The notes beneath the pieces were generated by a model that ran no database searches, was not told the origin of the DNA, and saw only the letters and a list, made by a program, of their open reading frames with translations. Made by a program: the position numbers and the translations under genes. A stretch of 64,000 nucleotides of DNA from Pontibacterium granulatum (GTDB taxonomy: Bacteria > Pseudomonadota > Gammaproteobacteria > Pseudomonadales > Balneatricaceae), in the NCBI RefSeq assembly GCF_029961155.1, contig NZ_JASBRH010000001.1, forward strand, positions 186,001 through 250,000. The letters are read 5' to 3'. Positions 22,538-47,030 of the stretch are shown piece after piece (positions within the stretch are counted from its first letter, which is position 1; each line of letters starts with the position of its first letter).

Positions 22538-23572
22538 TTACTGCAGCAGGTCCTCACCACTCAGACCGTTTTTCTCAACGATCTCTCGCAGCTTGCGTAG
22601 CGCTTCAACCTGAATCTGACGAACACGCTCACGCGTCAGGCCAATCTCGCTACCCACCTCTTCCAGTGTACTCATCTCGTAACCACGCAGGCCAAACCGG
22701 CGAGCCAATACTTCAGAGTGCTTCTCAGGTAGCATGGTCAGCCATTTGTCGAGGTTGCCGCTGATGTTGGTTTTCTGCAACAGGGTTTCCGGATCGGAAC
22801 TGTCCTGATCAGGGATGGTATCCAACAGCGACTTGTCGGAATCCTGCCCCATCGGCGTATCCACGGAACTTACACGCTCGTTCAGTCCCAGCATACGCTC
22901 AACGTTTTCAACCGGCTTGTTAACCAGCTCTGCGATCTCTTCCGCAGATGGCTCATGGTCCAGTTTTTGAGCCAGCTCGCGGGCCGCACGCAGATATACG
23001 TTCAGCTCCTTAACAACATGAATAGGCAAACGGATCGTGCGCGTCTGGTTCATGATCGCACGCTCGATGGTCTGGCGGATCCACCAGGTTGCGTACGTAG
23101 AGAATCGGAAACCACGTTCCGGATCAAATTTCTCTACCGCACGAATAAGACCCAGGTTACCTTCTTCGATCAGGTCCAGAAGGGTAAGCCCACGATTGAT
23201 GTAACGGCGAGCGATTTTAACCACCAGGCGCAGGTTACTTTCGATCATGCGCTGGCGTGAAGCCTCATCACCTTTCAGTGCACGGCGTGAATAGTAGACC
23301 TCTTCCTCTGCTGTAAGCAGCGGCGAGAAACCGATTTCGTTCAGGTAAAGCTGCGTTGCATCCAGAGTCTTTGCGTTAAGCAAATCGTTATGAGCAAGGC
23401 TACCCCGACCACGACCACTGGCAATGATCTCAGGAACCTTTTCTTCGTCTTCCTGCTCACTTTCTTCAGCGACATCTTCCGAAATGTCAGCAGTTGACTC
23501 ATCGGTACCACCATCAACCTCAAGGTCTTTGGATGCGTTACTCTGCTCGTAGTCCTTATCTACTTTTTCCAT
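22538..23572 (-). CDS. rpoS: Stationary-phase sigma factor RpoS
   Basis: Alternative sigma-70 family factor for general stress and stationary phase. The ATG at 23572 (344 residues) follows AGGGG; a TTG two codons earlier is less likely. An acidic N-terminus ([14 protein letters not shown]) is followed by region 2 ([19 protein letters not shown] and [12 protein letters not shown]), region 3, and region 4 with the helix-turn-helix near [17 protein letters not shown]. The nlpD-rpoS order is conserved, and in relatives the main rpoS promoter lies inside nlpD. Confidence 0.97.
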
Positions 23573-23635
23573 TGCCAACCCCTTTGGTGTCCTTTATCAA
23601 AAGCCACCCTATTCTAGTTATAGTCTGGAAACAAC

Positions 23636-24475
23636 TTATTGTTTTTTGGGCAGATATCTTAACGGATTTACCGGCACACCATCGCGTCTGATTTCAAAAT
23701 GAAGCATCACGCGCTCTGCGCCGCTACGCCCCATTTCGGCGATTTTATCACCAGCTGTAACCTTATCACTTTCTCTAACCAGAACGCGACTGTTATGCGC
23801 ATATGCACTTAAAAAATTCTGGTTATGATCAATGATAATAAGATTACCATACCCCAACAGTCCGTTTCCTGCATAGACCACTGTTCCTGACGCTGCCGCA
23901 AATACAGGATCTCCTTTACGTCCTGCAAGGTTTAAGCCTTTATTGACTTGCCCCTTGGTCTTGAAGGACGTGATCAACCGTCCTTTACTTGGCCACTGCC
24001 AATGAATTCGACCTGCCGCGGACGCCGTCTTCTTAGGCCTGTTGGCCGATGCAGTTGAATTGGTACGCTTTTCAACTGTTTTCGGCGGCTTGATCTGCTT
24101 CTTTACCGGTTTTTTATCGGTTTTGCTGACAGTCGACGACTTGGCTGAAGTGCTTTTCGCTTGTGCGCTACTGTCTCGGACAATTTTTTGGGCGCTGGGT
24201 TTCAATACGAGGCGTTGCCCTGGATAGATCTGGTAATCGCCACTGATATTGTTTAGCCGCGCCACCGTGCGGTAACTAAGACCGTGGCGGAATGCGATTG
24301 AATAGAGCGTGTCGCCTTTACGCACGACGTACACAGATGAGGAGGAGACAGAGGGCGCCTGGCGTACAACCTTCGTTCGCGATCGGTCCTGTACCGGGAC
24401 ACTATGCGGAGCGGCGCAACCGGTGATCAACACCGCAACAAGCGCGGAAATCAGCCAAACTGCACCCTTTACCAC
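23636..24475 (-). CDS. nlpD: Lipoprotein NlpD, LysM-LytM amidase activator
   Basis: Outer-membrane lipoprotein that activates septal amidases such as AmiC during cell separation. The 279-residue product has a signal peptide with lipobox LITGC (Cys at about residue 20), a LysM domain at about 50-95 (VVRKGDTLYSIAFRHGLSYR), a Lys/Ser/Thr-rich linker, and a LytM/M23 domain from about 160. The zinc motifs are degenerate (KGLNLAGRKGD and LHFEIR in place of HxxxD and HxH), as in activators rather than enzymes. A GTG start follows the upstream gene by 3 bases. Confidence 0.93.
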   Translation of the reverse strand: MVKGAVWLISALVAVLITGCAAPHSVPVQDRSRTKVVRQAPSVSSSSVYVVRKGDTLYSIAFRHGLSYRTVARLNNISGDYQIYPGQRLVLKPSAQKIVRDSSAQAKSTSAKSSTVSKTDKKPVKKQIKPPKTVEKRTNSTASANRPKKTASAAGRIHWQWPSKGRLITSFKTKGQVNKGLNLAGRKGDPVFAAASGTVVYAGNGLLGYGNLIIIDHNQNFLSAYAHNSRVLVRESDKVTAGDKIAEMGRSGAERVMLHFEIRRDGVPVNPLRYLPKKQ

Positions 24476-24478
24476 CCA

Positions 24479-25438
24479 TCACCCCTGACTCGGCTTGGTC
24501 CCTGCGGAACGGGCCAGCACAATGACCAAGATCGCTCCGAGCACCATCAGCGCCAAGGATATAGAGAGATACGCGTTCTGACCGGTCATGATTTCATAAC
24601 TGCCGGGAAGAATATTTTCCTGAACCAGAGGCACCTCTTCGCCATGCCGATTGATGGTATAGGCTGTGGTGTATTTCCAAGGCCACACCTTGTTCAGCGA
24701 GCCCAGCATGAAGCCCCCCAGCAGCGCGAGCGTGGTTACACGGTAGGAAGCAAACATCCAGTTCAACACCCGTGAGAAGCTCAGCAAACCAATCACACAA
24801 CCGACGGCAAACAACGCTAGCACCGGGATATCCATGGACTTTACAGCGCCGAGAATTGGCGCATACATACCCAGCAACAGTAGAATAAAACTACCTGAAA
24901 TCCCCGGCAGAATCATTGCACAGATGGCAATCATGCCGGAAAAGAACACCATCAAGGATGTAGGTTCTACCGCAGCTGGAGCAATGGAGGTCACCATATA
25001 GGCCAGCACCGTACCCGTCAGAAAAGCCGTAAATGCATTTCCCCGCCAATCTTCAATCTGCCGCGCCACCAGCCAACTGGAGGCCAGAATGAGGCCAAAG
25101 AAAAAGGACCAGAGCATCTCAGGGTAATTAGCCAGCAGGAACAGCACCCCGCGCGCAAAGGTGGTGACGCTGAATAGGATCCCCAGCAACAGGGTGAGCA
25201 GGAAGGGGCCGTTCACATACCGCCATGTGGGACCAATCCCCTCCTTAAACAGGACTTGTACCGCCTCGGGGCCACAACGTTTAAGCGAGCCGATAAGCTC
25301 TTCGTAGATCCCCGTCATAAATGCGATCGTGCCACCGGATACGCCAGGGACCGCATCGGCAGCGCCCATCATCACACCTTTACCGGACAAAATCAGATAA
25401 TCACGCCAATCCCGGCGCTGGTTTTCCCAGTTATCCAT
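24479..25438 (-). CDS. popT: DUF368 membrane protein, PopT-like undecaprenyl phosphate transporter
   Basis: A 319-residue polytopic inner-membrane protein. It carries the DUF368 signatures GAADAVPGVSGGTIAFMTG near residue 25 and the internally repeated AMILPGISGSFILLLLGMY near 175, with eight or more hydrophobic segments. Members of this family in Vibrio cholerae (PopT) return undecaprenyl phosphate across the inner membrane for reuse in envelope synthesis. Assignment is by family, not by direct test. It sits between pcm and nlpD with gaps of 2-3 bases, where Pseudomonas and E. coli have no such gene. Confidence 0.85.
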   Translation of the reverse strand: MDNWENQRRDWRDYLILSGKGVMMGAADAVPGVSGGTIAFMTGIYEELIGSLKRCGPEAVQVLFKEGIGPTWRYVNGPFLLTLLLGILFSVTTFARGVLFLLANYPEMLWSFFFGLILASSWLVARQIEDWRGNAFTAFLTGTVLAYMVTSIAPAAVEPTSLMVFFSGMIAICAMILPGISGSFILLLLGMYAPILGAVKSMDIPVLALFAVGCVIGLLSFSRVLNWMFASYRVTTLALLGGFMLGSLNKVWPWKYTTAYTINRHGEEVPLVQENILPGSYEIMTGQNAYLSISLALMVLGAILVIVLARSAGTKPSQG

Positions 25439-25440
25439 TG

Positions 25441-26076
25441 TTAACGCACAGTTCCACTTAGCAAAGGTACAAACTTGGCTGCTTCGACAACACGCGTGTC
25501 GAAGCTGTCCTCACCGGTACGCACAATCAGCTTTAATTCCTGCTGACGGGCGCCCACCGGGATAATCAAACGCCCACCGACAGTCAGCTGGGCCAGCAGC
25601 TCTGCTGGTACCTCTTCCGGCGCCGCTGTCACCAGAATACCATCAAAGGGGGCTTTTGCCGGCCAGCCCATACCTCCGTCACTATGCATCAATTGCACAT
25701 TACGCAACTTCAGCAATTGCAGGCGTTTGCGTGCCTTATCCTGCAACGGCTTAATGCGCTCGACACTGAATACCTGATCGACCAACTGCGCCAGCACCGC
25801 GGTTTGATAACCAGAACCGGTCCCCACTTCCAGCACATTATGCAGCGGCCCCTCTGCCAGCAACAGCTCGGTCATTCGGGCCACACTGTAGGGTTGTGAG
25901 ATGGTTTGATTAAAGCCAATCGGCAATGCCGTATCTTCATAGGCACGGTGCGACAGCGCCTCATCGATAAAAATATGGCGCGGCGTATCACGCACAACAT
26001 CCAGCACGCGATCATCCTCAACCCCCTGCTCACGCAACCGCGCAATCAGCCGGTCGCGAGTGCGGCGCGAGGTCAT
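25441..26076 (-). CDS. pcm: Protein-L-isoaspartate O-methyltransferase
   Basis: Repairs isoaspartyl damage in proteins using S-adenosylmethionine. The ATG at 26076 is preferred because AAGGA lies seven bases upstream and the product then starts [14 protein letters not shown] like its relatives (211 residues); a GTG at 26106 overlapping surE is an alternative. Motifs include [31 protein letters not shown] and the SAM-binding [16 protein letters not shown]. It belongs to the tightly packed ftsB-truD-surE-pcm-popT-nlpD string. Confidence 0.96.
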
Positions 26077-26102
26077 GCCTATTCCTTCAAGGTTTAGATG
26101 GG

Positions 26103-26852
26103 TCACAGAATGCCCTCAAGCCAACTGCCCAAATTATCCATAGCTTCGTACTGAGTCATGTCGATCTGCAGCGGTGTAATCGATACATAACCCTGTTCTA
26201 TTGCGAAGAAGTCGGTTCCAGGCTCACGATCAAGCACTTCACCGACACCTGCGATCCAGTAACGCTCGCACCCCCGCGGATCTTTAACCTTAACGGGCTT
26301 ATCCGCCAGGCTGCGGTGCCCAAGGCGGGTAACATGTACGCCCTGAATCTGATCCATCGGCAGATCGGGCACGTTTACATTCAACACAGTACGTGGTGCC
26401 AGGTTCACCTTTGCTATACCCGCGACCATCAGACAGACAATCTCCGCTGCCGTTTCAAAGTACTGCGGATGATGGTTTGCAACAGATACGGCAATCGGCG
26501 GAAACTTACGATGACGCCCTTCGGTTGCGGCCGCGACAGTACCGGAGTACAGCACATCATCCCCCATATTCGCCCCGGCATTGATACCGGAGACAACAAT
26601 ATCCGGTTCAAAATCGAAGACTCCTGAGGTACCCAGATGAACACAGTCCGTTGGCGTCCCATTCACCCCAACGAAACCATTCTCATGACGGAAGGCCTCT
26701 AAAGGCCGATCCAGCGTCAGTGAGTTACTGGCGCCACTGCGGTTGCGGTCCGGGGCAACCACCTCAATCTCACAGTCCTGACGCAGGACTTTTGCCAGTG
26801 TTGCCAAACCTGGTGCAAACACACCGTCATCGTTAGAGATTAGTACCTTCAT
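26103..26852 (-). CDS. surE: 5'/3'-nucleotidase SurE
   Basis: Metal-dependent phosphatase of nucleoside monophosphates, linked to stationary-phase survival. The 249-residue protein begins [15 protein letters not shown] with the metal-binding Asp pair D8-D9, and has [13 protein letters not shown] near residue 40 and [10 protein letters not shown] near 88, all family hallmarks. The start overlaps the truD stop by 4 bases, so translation is coupled. Confidence 0.97.
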
Positions 26853-27895
26853 TCGCCCGTATTCTGTTCCGCAGTTTTAGCCTCGACCAACTCGCGCAAT
26901 ACACTTGTTGCAAAAGCGCCCGATGGCAGTTCAAATTGCAGCCACCATTGTCGTTCAGACTCGGCCTCAGCTTCAAGACCCAACGGCTGCAAACGCAGAG
27001 ATCGTCGCTCCTGACGCAATCCCAGGTGCTCAAGCCGCTCCAACACTTCCGACCAGGGCTGCAACTGCTCAGCTTCCCATTGGCGGGAGTCAGCAATATT
27101 CAAAGGTTCTCCGCGCCCCCACATGGCACCGGTCAGATTAACATCACCGTCCGCAAGACGTTGCACTGTTTCCGGATCAATCACTTCTGCAACAAAGGTA
27201 CTCTTCGACCCAGTCAGCATCAACGCATCACCAATCAGCAGTGTATCCCACAATTTCTGATCAATACGCTGGGACAACAGGTGATTAAAGCACCAAGAAC
27301 GAACTGCTGATATATACATCCCTTTCTTTGCGCGCTGACGCTCTTTGCGTTCACCGCGCAGCAGCTCCAGACCTTTCTGCAAGTTACCGCCATCCTGGCC
27401 AAAGCGCTGCTCCCCAAAGTAGTTAGGGACACCTTGCTTGATCAGTTCCAACCGGGCAAGCAGCTCTTCAGGATGACTGACATCCCGCAGGCACAGGCGA
27501 AAGCGGTTGCCCTGCAATGCCCCCAAGCGCAACTTGCGCGGGTGGCGTACCGTTTTCAGGACCTCAATGGTATCACCACCAAACAAGTTCCAGTTAAGCA
27601 CGCGATGTTGCGGCAATGCCACACTAAACCACTGTTCGGTAACCGCATGACGGTCCTTCTTGCCCGCATAGCCCACATCGCGTGGACTGATCTGGCAAAA
27701 GCGCGCCAACTGCCGGGCAACCCAATCGGTATTTTCACCAGTCTTACGGATATAGAGAAACAGGTGTTCACCTTCGCCTTCGGGCTCAAATCCCAACTGC
27801 TCAATAACCTGGAAATCTTCGTTACAACTGCGGATCAGCGCACTGCCTTCGGGTTTACCGTACAGGTAGCTGTATTGGGTGGGAAAACTGCTCAC
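26849..27895 (-). CDS. truD: tRNA pseudouridine(13) synthase TruD
   Basis: Modifies uridine 13 of tRNA-Glu. The 348-residue product has the TruD catalytic motif DVGYAGKKDRHAVTEQWFSV (catalytic Asp of KDR near residue 81) and the later GNRFRLCLRD and NYFGEQRFG motifs. It overlaps ftsB by 4 bases and surE by 4 bases. In E. coli and Pseudomonas, ispD and ispF lie between ftsB and truD; here there is no room for them, which is the notable feature of this junction. Confidence 0.96.
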   Translation of the reverse strand: MSSFPTQYSYLYGKPEGSALIRSCNEDFQVIEQLGFEPEGEGEHLFLYIRKTGENTDWVARQLARFCQISPRDVGYAGKKDRHAVTEQWFSVALPQHRVLNWNLFGGDTIEVLKTVRHPRKLRLGALQGNRFRLCLRDVSHPEELLARLELIKQGVPNYFGEQRFGQDGGNLQKGLELLRGERKERQRAKKGMYISAVRSWCFNHLLSQRIDQKLWDTLLIGDALMLTGSKSTFVAEVIDPETVQRLADGDVNLTGAMWGRGEPLNIADSRQWEAEQLQPWSEVLERLEHLGLRQERRSLRLQPLGLEAEAESERQWWLQFELPSGAFATSVLRELVEAKTAEQNTGE

Positions 27896-28191
27896 TCTTG
27901 GGGTGTACTCCGTCCAGGTTCAACCAGTTGAAAAAACGTCTCGCCCTCACGAATCATTCCCAGTTCGCTGCGGGCGCGCTCCTCAAGTGCAGATAACCCA
28001 TTTTTGAGATCCTGCACTTCAGCTTCCAGCTGTTTGTTGCGTTGGCTAAGCGCCTGATTTTCTGCCTGTTGCTGCTCAATTTCCTGCTCCAGAGACCATA
28101 CCTGGCGCAGGTTTGCCTCACCAAACCAGAGTCGGTACTGCAACGCAGCCAACAAAACCAAAAGCGTAATCAATAACCAGCGAAACATCAT
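27892..28191 (-). CDS. ftsB: Cell division protein FtsB
   Basis: Bitopic divisome protein forming a complex with FtsL and FtsQ. The 99-residue product has one N-terminal transmembrane helix (about residues 3-21), a periplasmic coiled coil (EQEIEQQQAENQALSQRNKQ at about 35-55) and the conserved ERARSELGMIREGETFFQLV near the C-terminus. It is downstream of eno beyond a terminator, as in other gammaproteobacteria. Its stop overlaps the truD start. Confidence 0.95.
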   Translation of the reverse strand: MMFRWLLITLLVLLAALQYRLWFGEANLRQVWSLEQEIEQQQAENQALSQRNKQLEAEVQDLKNGLSALEERARSELGMIREGETFFQLVEPGRSTPQE

Positions 28192-28250: not shown

Positions 28251-29567
<1,317 letters not shown>

Positions 29568-44106: not shown

Positions 44107-45471
44107 TCAAAGTCGCATGACGTCGTTGATGATCGCAATGCTCATCAGCGTAAAGATAATTGCCATGCCCAAGCGAAGTCCCGCCATCTGGATCCGCTCA
44201 CTGACCGGTTTACCGCGCAGGAGCTCAACGGTGTAGTAGAACAGATGGCCACCATCCAGCATAGGAATCGGCAACAGGTTCAATACACCCAAACTGATAC
44301 TGAGATAGGCAAGGAATCCGATAAACTCTTCCATACCGGACTCCGCTGAAGCACCGGCCACTTTAGCAATGGTAATCGGACCACTCAAGTTTTTTACTGA
44401 AATGACACCTTCAAGCATCTTCCAGATGGAATCCAGAATCAGCGTAATCATCTGCCAGGTTTTCCCGATGCCTTTACCCAGCGATTCCAGGACTCCAAAA
44501 CTAATCACACGCTGCTGCTCAGGCGGCCACGCCACCTCAGCCACGCCAGCACCGATGTAGCCGATCGTTGCATCACCGGTTTGGCGAACCATTGGACGCA
44601 CATTGATAATCAGCTCATGACCATCCCGATCAACAAGCAGAGCCAGGTTCTCGCCCGGTGAACGCTGCACATATTCAACCAGTGCGTACCAGTCTTGAAT
44701 CGGCTCTTTGTTGATCTCCAGAACATGATCACCCGCCCGCAACCCTGCCTGAGCAGCCACACCTTCATCCAGCAAGCGACCGACAACCGCCGGCACCTCC
44801 GGGCTCCAAGCCACCAAACCCAGGGCGTTCACCGGTGATTGCGACTCTACATCAAACGTCCAGTTATCCAGCTGAACAACGTACTCTTCCGGCAGCGTAA
44901 CACCAGGGTATTGCATACGCAGGTTAAGGGCGCCGCTCTCTCCGATGCGCGATGCCAGCAACAGATTAACTGACTCCCAAGAGAGCGCCTCCTTCCCATC
45001 GACGGCTGTAATTTCACCGCCAGGGCGCACATCCGCCAAGGCTGCCGGGGAGCCGGGAACCACATCCGTCACAGTCGGCTTAATAGCATTCACGCCATAA
45101 ACAAACATGAACCAATAGGCCAGCACGGCAAAAATCAGATTCACTGCGGGTCCGGCACCAACTACGGCGATACGCTGCAAAACTGGCTTACGGTTAAAGG
45201 CCTGGGATTTGAGGGCTTCAGGGACCTCGCCTTCACGCTCATCCAGCATACGAACGTATCCGCCAAGGGGAATTGCGGCGAGTACATACTCCGTACCACT
45301 GCGACGACTGCGCCAGCGGAAAAGCGACCGCCCGAAACCGATTGAGAAGGTGAGGACTTTTACACCACAGCGACGTGCAACGAAGAAGTGCCCCCACTCG
45401 TGAATCGTAACCAGGATACCTAGGGTTACCAGTGTAGCCAGCAGGGTTTGCAAAAGATCCATAAGCGGCAT
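44107..45471 (-). CDS. rseP: Site-2 protease RseP
   Basis: Inner-membrane zinc metalloprotease that cleaves anti-sigma factor RseA and remnant signal peptides. The 454-residue protein has HEWGH at residues 24-28 in the first membrane segment, two periplasmic PDZ domains (about 130-310) and the third zinc-ligand motif LNLLPIPMLDGGHL near residue 400. It follows cdsA by 4 bases; in Pseudomonas dxr lies between these genes, but here it is absent. Confidence 0.97.
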   Translation of the reverse strand: MPLMDLLQTLLATLVTLGILVTIHEWGHFFVARRCGVKVLTFSIGFGRSLFRWRSRRSGTEYVLAAIPLGGYVRMLDEREGEVPEALKSQAFNRKPVLQRIAVVGAGPAVNLIFAVLAYWFMFVYGVNAIKPTVTDVVPGSPAALADVRPGGEITAVDGKEALSWESVNLLLASRIGESGALNLRMQYPGVTLPEEYVVQLDNWTFDVESQSPVNALGLVAWSPEVPAVVGRLLDEGVAAQAGLRAGDHVLEINKEPIQDWYALVEYVQRSPGENLALLVDRDGHELIINVRPMVRQTGDATIGYIGAGVAEVAWPPEQQRVISFGVLESLGKGIGKTWQMITLILDSIWKMLEGVISVKNLSGPITIAKVAGASAESGMEEFIGFLAYLSISLGVLNLLPIPMLDGGHLFYYTVELLRGKPVSERIQMAGLRLGMAIIFTLMSIAIINDVMRL

Positions 45472-45475
45472 TAAC

Positions 45476-46288
45476 TCAGTTCAGGGTAACGAACTGCACG
45501 CCCAGCACAAACAAAGGGGCGGCAGCGGTCAGGCTATCCATCCTGTCCAGAATACCACCATGGCCCGGTAACAGCTGACTGCTGTCCTTCATGCCCTGAT
45601 GGCGTTTCAACATACTTTCAAAGAGATCCCCCAACACGGAGATCATCCCGGTTACTACGCTCAGCAGCACCAGGTAGACCAACGATTGAACATCAAGTTC
45701 AAACCAAAACGAAAAACCAAGCCCTACCAGAACACAGGAAAGCAAACCGCCATACAATCCCTCCCGGGTTTTACCGGGACTCACCGACGGCGCCAGTTTA
45801 TTTTTACCCAGGGATTTGCCGGTAAAATACGCCCCGACATCTGCTGCCCACACCAGTAACAATAACATCAGGATCAGTTCGGTGCTCAGCCCCCAGGACT
45901 TAAGCTCACCAAACGCAATCCACACAGGTAGCAGGACGGCGTATCCCATCAAGACGCGAACCCCCACCGGCGCCCACCCCGACGTACTCGGATAACGAAT
46001 GACCCAGACCAGCGCCAACACCCAAAAGAGCAGACCAGCCGTCAACAACGCGGTAACAGGAAGTACAGCCTCAAACTGATGCAAAAGCACTAAAGCCAAC
46101 GCTACAGTGACGATAAAAAACGCTTTATCTTTAACCCCTTTTAACCCGGAAAGCCGCGACCACTCCCAGGCTCCCAACAGCAGCACGCCGTCGATAACCA
46201 GCAAGAACCAATCTTTAGGGAAAAGAAACAGAACAACCAGCGCCAGCGGCGCCAGAACTATGGCAGTAAGAAAACGAGCTTTAAGCAC
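45476..46288 (-). CDS. cdsA: Phosphatidate cytidylyltransferase CdsA
   Basis: Makes CDP-diacylglycerol, the precursor of all major phospholipids. The 270-residue polytopic membrane protein has the family signature near residues 215-250 (SVLGDLFESMLKR and LLPGHGGILDRMDSL with the metal-binding Asps), plus VWAADVGAYFTGKSLG near 145. The start overlaps uppS by 8 bases. Its stop is 4 bases from the rseP start. Confidence 0.96.
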   Translation of the reverse strand: MLKARFLTAIVLAPLALVVLFLFPKDWFLLVIDGVLLLGAWEWSRLSGLKGVKDKAFFIVTVALALVLLHQFEAVLPVTALLTAGLLFWVLALVWVIRYPSTSGWAPVGVRVLMGYAVLLPVWIAFGELKSWGLSTELILMLLLLVWAADVGAYFTGKSLGKNKLAPSVSPGKTREGLYGGLLSCVLVGLGFSFWFELDVQSLVYLVLLSVVTGMISVLGDLFESMLKRHQGMKDSSQLLPGHGGILDRMDSLTAAAPLFVLGVQFVTLN

Positions 46289-47030
46289 CTTTATCCGCCT
46301 CTAATTGCTCACTGGTCCGCCCAAATCGACGTTCTCGTCCGGTAAAGTCATCGATCGCTTCTATCAAGCGCGCCTTACCAAAGTCAGGCCAGAAACAATT
46401 GGCGTAGTAAAATTCGGTGTAGGCAAACTGCCAGATCAGGAAGTTACTTATACGCTGCTCGCCTGCTGTACGAATACACAGATCCGGAGCGGGCAACTCG
46501 GCCAAGTGCACATAACTGCCAAACAGCTCCTCGTCGATCTGGTCAGGCGTCAGCTCACCACTAACACAACGCTCCGCAATCACTTTTGCGGCGTTCACAA
46601 TATCCCAGCGGCCGCCGTAATTTGCGGCAATATTCAGCTGCAGGCCGGTACAGGATTCTGTTAGCGCCTCAGCTGCTGCGATTTTTTTCTGCAAAGAGGC
46701 ACTGAATCGGGCTTTATCCCCAATCACACGCAAACGAATATTGTTCTTATGCAGTTTTTTCACTTCGCGATCCAGCGCGAACATGAACAACTCCATCAAT
46801 CCTTTTACTTCAACCGCTGGTCGCTTCCAGTTTTCAGAACTGAACGCGAACAGGGTCAGCGCTTCGACCCCTTGTTCAACACAACCGGTGATCACCTCAC
46901 GGACAGAATCAACACCCGCCTTGTGGCCAGCCAAGCTTGGGAGTCCTCGGCTTTTTGCCCAGCGATTGTTACCATCCATGATAATTGCAATATGCTTGGG
47001 CGGCGGATTTATTTTGGCGGAATCGGTCAT
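46281..47030 (-). CDS. uppS: Undecaprenyl diphosphate synthase (cis-prenyltransferase)
   Basis: Extends farnesyl diphosphate with isopentenyl diphosphate to the C55 carrier for peptidoglycan and O-antigen. The 249-residue protein has IIMDGNNRWAKSRGL with the catalytic Asp at residue 19, then GHKAGVDSVREV, LTLFAFSSENWKRP and the C-terminal PDLCIRTAGEQRISNFLIWQ. It shows that isoprenoid precursors are required even though dxr, ispD and ispF are missing from their usual places in this window. Confidence 0.97.
   Translation of the reverse strand: MTDSAKINPPPKHIAIIMDGNNRWAKSRGLPSLAGHKAGVDSVREVITGCVEQGVEALTLFAFSSENWKRPAVEVKGLMELFMFALDREVKKLHKNNIRLRVIGDKARFSASLQKKIAAAEALTESCTGLQLNIAANYGGRWDIVNAAKVIAERCVSGELTPDQIDEELFGSYVHLAELPAPDLCIRTAGEQRISNFLIWQFAYTEFYYANCFWPDFGKARLIEAIDDFTGRERRFGRTSEQLEADKGA

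Follow-up and report, generated by a model that had tools for sequence, protein, structure and literature searches.

A mevalonate gene cluster of Marinobacterium, similar to the cluster of Candidatus Liberibacter, has already been published (PMC5291501), and the available part of that paper makes no mention of a loss of ispD, ispF and dxr in Marinobacterium, of the family-wide extent of this loss, or of a retained DXS. Partial sets of MEP genes have also been described, since some bacteria without Dxs keep the rest of the pathway (PMC10663253). The family analyzed here resembles these bacteria in holding a partial set and is the reverse case, with only Dxs kept among the five MEP enzymes searched (Dxs, dxr, IspD, IspF and IspH). 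Bacterial isoprenoid pathway use has been surveyed (PMC10663253, PMC13001223), and neither 'Oceanospirill' nor 'Gammaproteobacteria' occurs in the main texts of the surveys in their available form. The string 'mevalon' is absent from the main text of genome papers on Amphritea, Marinobacterium and Neptuniibacter, and no description of a family-wide MEP-to-mevalonate swap was found among the listed titles and abstract openings of the open-licence literature.

Other work bears on the enzyme itself. In the DXPS of P. aeruginosa, loop residues 206-245 were replaced by six glycines with comparable kinetics in both forms, and the loop was described as poorly conserved (PMC10504544); the M. tuberculosis enzyme with the loop removed was 2-3 times more active (PMC9068908). 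Because truncated forms retain activity, the loop is dispensable for catalysis in vitro. In contrast to the engineered loop-truncated enzymes of P. aeruginosa, K. pneumoniae and M. tuberculosis (PMC10504544, PMC9068908), the shortening reported here is natural, variable in length, and found in genomes from which the other MEP enzymes tested are missing.

We analyzed a stretch of 64,000 nucleotides from Pontibacterium granulatum (the window), together with the genome that holds it, its family and its order. The reading that we favour, with a probability of about 0.92, is that a mevalonate operon replaced the MEP pathway downstream of DXS, that DXS was kept for vitamins, and that the DXS loop was then lost. 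New here are the retention of DXS, with PdxJ and without PdxS, alongside the loss of the other tested MEP genes, and the shortening of the loop in MEP-less genomes. On this reading a core pathway would have been replaced across a marine bacterial family, leaving a clean gap at each of two conserved sites, and nature would offer a comparison of DXS with and without the loop, and with and without isoprenoid duty, so that the function of the loop in an antibacterial drug target becomes directly testable.

Two conserved gene junctions in the window

The first junction lies in an unbroken series of genes on the minus strand, eno-ftsB-truD-surE-pcm-(PopT-like transporter)-nlpD-rpoS. The gene for the cell division protein FtsB occupies 27892..28191 (NCBIfam NF002058, 133.7 bits, cut-off 101) and that for TruD, tRNA pseudouridine(13) synthase, 26849..27895 (TIGR00094, 199.8 bits, cut-off 172.2), and the GTG start of truD overlaps the stop of ftsB by the four bases GTGA (27892..27895), at the site where synteny places ispD and ispF in relatives. 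They are flanked by eno (28251..29546; TIGR01060, 676.6 bits) on one side and on the other by surE (26103..26852; TIGR00087, 217.3 bits), pcm (25441..26106; TIGR00080, 220 bits), a gene for a PopT-like polyprenyl-phosphate transporter (24479..25438; NF052564, 417.6 bits, above cut-off), one for an NlpD-like murein hydrolase activator (23636..24475; best match NF040883, 222.2 bits, and NlpD model NF008123, 210.3 bits, both below cut-off) and rpoS (22538..23578; TIGR02394, 464.8 bits). The original prediction had described this four-base overlap without ispD and ispF, and without a remnant of either; the overlap is confirmed and leaves no space for a remnant. It had also placed all other members of the series in order, which holds from eno to rpoS with one addition, the PopT-like gene between pcm and nlpD, matched in 31 of the 36 junction loci read.

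The comparison covered 174 genomes of the order, six of them sampled from the window's family (f1) and five from a second family (f39). ftsB stands directly before truD in 6/6 genomes of f1, with a gap of -8 to -1 bases when the longest frames are taken, and since the same junction recurs in all six it is neither chance nor an assembly gap. With four of the five f39 genomes included, the gap ranges from -14 to +9 bases (longest frames); in the fifth, G133, the contig ends within truD and the ftsB match adjoins the start of the truD match. Loci of IspF-bearing genomes of the order read ftsB-ispD-ispF-truD in 22 of 25 cases, with 1116-1433 bases from ftsB to truD, the exceptions being two loci of f21 (L135, L136) without ftsB in the stretch and one of f36 (L153) with ispF alone.

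The second junction concerns dxr, which in many gammaproteobacteria is located between cdsA and rseP, presumably also its former place in this lineage. In the window, uppS (undecaprenyl diphosphate synthase, 46281..47030, minus strand; TIGR00055, 298.1 bits) is followed by cdsA (phosphatidate cytidylyltransferase, 45476..46288, minus strand; NF008635, 214.5 bits, below the cut-off of 385), and only four bases (45472..45475) separate cdsA from rseP (44107..45471, minus strand; TIGR00054, 384.7 bits). A profile search of the whole genome (4.66 Mb in 75 contigs, given as 100% complete) gave no match to dxr.

MEP genes across the order and the mevalonate operon

The prediction that the missing ispD and ispF and the missing dxr belong together is supported by their distribution. 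IspF was found in 160 of the 174 genomes and was absent from f1 (6/6), f39 (5/5) and G052, G119 and G145 (65-75% complete). dxr was also found in 160 and was absent from f1 (6/6), f39 (5/5), G031, G114 and G119; G031 and G114 carry IspF, and joint absence among the 174 is confined to the two families and G119 (74% complete). Furthermore, IspF was absent from all 22 named-record genomes searched, among them Marinobacterium, Amphritea, Neptuniibacter and Nitrincola; several of these 22 are MAGs, and some may share species with the sampled genomes of f1.

The other enzymes were searched in a panel of 32 genomes (six of f1, five of f39, five MEP controls and 16 from named records). IspH was absent from 27/27 MEP-less genomes and present in 5/5 controls. 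The IspD profile scored 210-254 bits in the five controls and reached such strength in none of the 27, where its matches were partial and at most 46.8 bits, the best lying in frames of 427-494 aa that we take to be GlmU; a comparable weak match is seen in the controls too. The window's genome accordingly has no complete MEP set, with dxr, IspF, IspH and a true IspD all absent from it, and relocated ispD and ispF genes are ruled out by whole-genome profile searches. Neither of the outcomes that the original prediction named as refuting was thus observed. A correction is that dxs is still present in f1; f39 lacks all five enzymes searched.

A mevalonate operon had been expected on the same branch, and an HMG-CoA reductase gene is present in all genomes of f1 (6/6) and f39 (5/5). 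In the window's genome the operon sits on a different contig from the window and holds six genes in the order HMG-CoA reductase (HMGR), type 2 IPP isomerase, HMG-CoA synthase, two GHMP kinases and diphosphomevalonate decarboxylase. HMGR, at G000:C22:255595-256620, matches PF00368 over the family cut-off (E 9.4e-86) and TIGR00533 at 291.7 bits, below the cut-off of 441.8. The isomerase (TIGR02151, 366.5 bits, cut-off 281.3), the synthase (TIGR01835, 523.7 bits, cut-off 360.35) and the decarboxylase (TIGR01240, 301.4 bits, cut-off 171.35) all exceed their thresholds. The two adjacent kinases both match the mevalonate kinase model best, with 139.2 and 160.9 bits to TIGR00549, below the cut-off of 163.05; the counterpart of the first in locus L012 (genome G103) reaches 165.5 bits. 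A structure comparison gave six solved relatives of HMGR, among them 6hr7, which we take to be an archaeal HMG-CoA reductase, the others presumably being human, plant or similar class I enzymes. Judged by these closest solved structures, the enzyme is class I.

Of 86 operon loci, drawn from the six f1 genomes and 80 named loci with four contigs counted twice, 76 carry all six genes in this order. Eight of the ten incomplete loci reach a sequence end, and in the other two (L062 and L068, both Marinobacterium) the 4.9 kb after the second kinase contain no decarboxylase gene. The 80 named loci are the best of 573 confirmed relatives. They include Amphritea, Marinobacterium, Neptuniibacter, Neptunomonas and Nitrincola, as well as Motiliproteus, Balneatrix, Pokkaliibacter, Parendozoicomonas and an Osedax symbiont; as far as record titles tell, all of these best 80 come from the same group, and none of them points to a donor for the operon. 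Nitrincola sp. A-D6 has two contigs (L098, L099), each with a class I HMGR gene, which may be two copies or a mixed assembly.

DXS without the other MEP enzymes searched

DXS is present in all six genomes of f1 and in 15 of the 16 named-record genomes of the panel, and absent from f39 (0/5) and from the Osedax symbiont G189. The DXS of the window's genome matches TIGR00204 with 779.9 bits (cut-off 465.95). It is preceded by two frames that we name, on our own assumption, ispA-like and xseB-like, and an ispA-like frame also adjoins dxs in A. balenae. Since it is 58-64% identical to the DXS of four MEP-using genomes, this DXS looks inherited. PdxJ uses DXP; it is present in 32/32 genomes of the panel, and PdxS passes its cut-off in 0/32. 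Given this use of DXP, the retention of PdxJ and the absence of PdxS, the DXS of f1 most probably serves vitamin B6. However, PdxJ alone does not force the retention of DXS, as it is found without DXS in f39 (5/5) and in G189. In f39, then, PdxJ is present and both DXS and PdxS are absent.

The active site of DXS appears to be kept. Columns were mapped by hand through the alignment to chain 2o1s, which we take to be E. coli DXS, and H53, R103, H273, D399 and H403 are invariant in all 16 aligned DXS, 13 of them loop-less. These columns match the active-site network of H49, R99, H299, D427 and H431 described for the E. coli enzyme (PMC12633525).

Together, these observations suggest the following course of events. 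The lineage would have acquired a complete mevalonate operon, able to turn acetyl-CoA into IPP and DMAPP by way of HMG-CoA synthase, class I HMGR, two kinases, the decarboxylase and the type 2 isomerase. The operon having taken over, the MEP genes downstream of DXS would have become dispensable and been removed cleanly, among them dxr and the ispD-ispF pair at the ftsB-truD junction. DXS would have been kept, in an apparently ancestral operon (xseB-ispA-dxs), because PdxJ continued to draw on DXP for the synthesis of pyridoxal phosphate, as thiamine synthesis probably did too. No longer tied to isoprenoid supply, DXS would then have lost most of a loop that MEP-using relatives hold at constant length. 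The gene content, the conserved junctions and the shortened loop are observed, and from them we infer the direction of this replacement, the role of the operon as the working source of isoprenoids, the vitamin duty of DXS and the cause of the loop loss.

The loop region, defined as the residues between the motifs NDNxMSI and DGH, comprises 66-68 residues in 57/57 DXS from IspF-bearing genomes of the order, drawn from 41 families (one of these genomes, G031, gave no dxr match), and 28-50 residues in 21/21 DXS from MEP-less genomes. Twenty of the latter were measured by the pattern, and the DXS of L195, without the usual DGH, has a loop region of 35 residues; that of the window's genome has 36. 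The match of this last DXS to the profile is broken between positions 194 and 231, and is unbroken in every MEP genome among the matches listed (about 150 rows), outside which lie the lower-scoring DXS genomes G011, G022, G035, G052, G072, G129, G149, G154 and G165. Likewise, its alignment with chain 2o1s is interrupted from about residue 201 to about residue 239, and it matches chain 8a29, which has a glycine run at the loop, without a break; from this glycine run, the fit and the published construct we read 8a29 as the truncated P. aeruginosa enzyme (PMC10504544). The length of the loop is thus kept in MEP users of the order and set free where the pathway has gone.

It may be, with odds somewhat short of even, that the loop was removed by a single chance deletion in an ancestor and then drifted in length, with no relation to the change of pathway. 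A tree that sets all 21 loop-less DXS in one clade is not rejected (p-AU 0.934) and scores above the free quick tree, and removal of the loop left activity comparable in P. aeruginosa (PMC10504544) and not lowered in M. tuberculosis (PMC9068908). Loss within the order may have been one event followed by drift, so that the link between loop and pathway is drawn from few independent cases. However, the contrast between 66-68 residues in IspF-bearing relatives and 28-50 in MEP-less genomes points to a constraint that ended. Also against a chance deletion are the loop positions, numbered from the first Asn of NDNxMSI, in 48 looped DXS of equal length, of which 27 (Tyr), 52 (Glu), 56 (Lys) and 61 (Pro) are identical in 48/48, and 31 (Arg) and 53 (Glu) in 47/48; in the DXS of the window's genome 31, 52, 53 and 56 fall inside the deleted stretch and the edge positions 27 and 61 are changed. 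A separate loop loss, in a second-copy DXS of Paraburkholderia, also stands against chance. The quick DXS tree sets the Parendozoicomonas pair (L123, L134) apart, and a claim of two independent losses within the order was withdrawn when the single loop-less clade was not rejected.

Paraburkholderia is presumed to be an MEP-using genus. DXS encoded on three of its plasmids (L215-L217) have a loop region of 34 residues, and in the one record with annotation (L216) the gene is named dxs_2. These loop-less DXS fall in one group with looped DXS of beta- and alphaproteobacteria (97% SH-aLRT), which indicates an independent loop loss; this fits a DXS without isoprenoid duty, and is no proof of it. 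In L216, dxs_2 lies near genes for the large subunit of acetolactate synthase and for 2-oxoglutarate dehydrogenase E1.

As to why a loop freed from isoprenoid duty should go, feedback inhibition of DXS by IPP and DMAPP is described in a review (PMC13001223), and a part of the loop in this feedback is a conjecture of ours. The loop could be a control element of the MEP pathway, acting for example in such feedback or in hand-over to the next enzyme. Under mevalonate it would be useless or even harmful, throttling the vitamin supply, and would have been removed by selection. We hold this speculative extension to be unlikely; if it were true, mevalonate users would carry a natural vitamin-only DXS, and a pair of looped and loop-less enzymes would reveal what the loop does.

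A gene fusion in the mevalonate operon of a second family

The original prediction had asked whether the three genes disappear on the same branch, and its account has to be corrected by the addition of f39, in which the ftsB-truD gap is accompanied by another mevalonate operon. In 5/5 genomes of f39 (G039, G076, G105, G133 and G157) HMGR is class II and fused to mevalonate kinase, with both halves of the fusion above curated cut-offs (374-403 bits for HMGR, 234-247 bits for the kinase); the fusions lie at L015:7831-10119, L222:3099-5975, L223:3044-5290, L224:4202-6463 and L225:4272-6521. On account of this class and this fusion, f1 and f39 use different mevalonate operons. No description of an HMGR-mevalonate kinase fusion was found in a narrow search of the open-licence literature.

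A single loss of the MEP pathway in a common ancestor of f1 and f39, with a later exchange of mevalonate operons in one of them, seems to us somewhat unlikely. The two operons differ in HMGR class, gene fusion and order, and DXS is present in f1 and absent from f39. Quick trees of up to eight genes also separate the families, though these free trees fail to unite f1 itself, placing its genome G131 beside f27. On the other side, a tree uniting f1 and f39 is not rejected (p-AU 0.775) and beats the free quick tree under a simpler model; f1 as a single clade is not rejected either (p-AU 0.807). Separate losses in the two families had been held as a firm claim, which was withdrawn since the constrained tree is at least as good.

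It is very improbable that ispD, ispF and dxr have merely moved or been replaced by analogues, such as the known alternative DXR-II (PMC3847144), with the MEP pathway still running around the DXS present in f1, since IspH and a true IspD are missing from 27/27 MEP-less genomes that also lack IspF, and a complete mevalonate operon is found in the window's genome.

HMG-CoA reductase is also present in 40 IspF-bearing genomes of the order. Among these, the HMGR of G071 and G153 (f35) and G085 (f8), at loci L226, L227 and L019, is class I-like and below the model cut-off, in frames of 808-991 aa of which a large part is without any NCBIfam match at E 1e-15.
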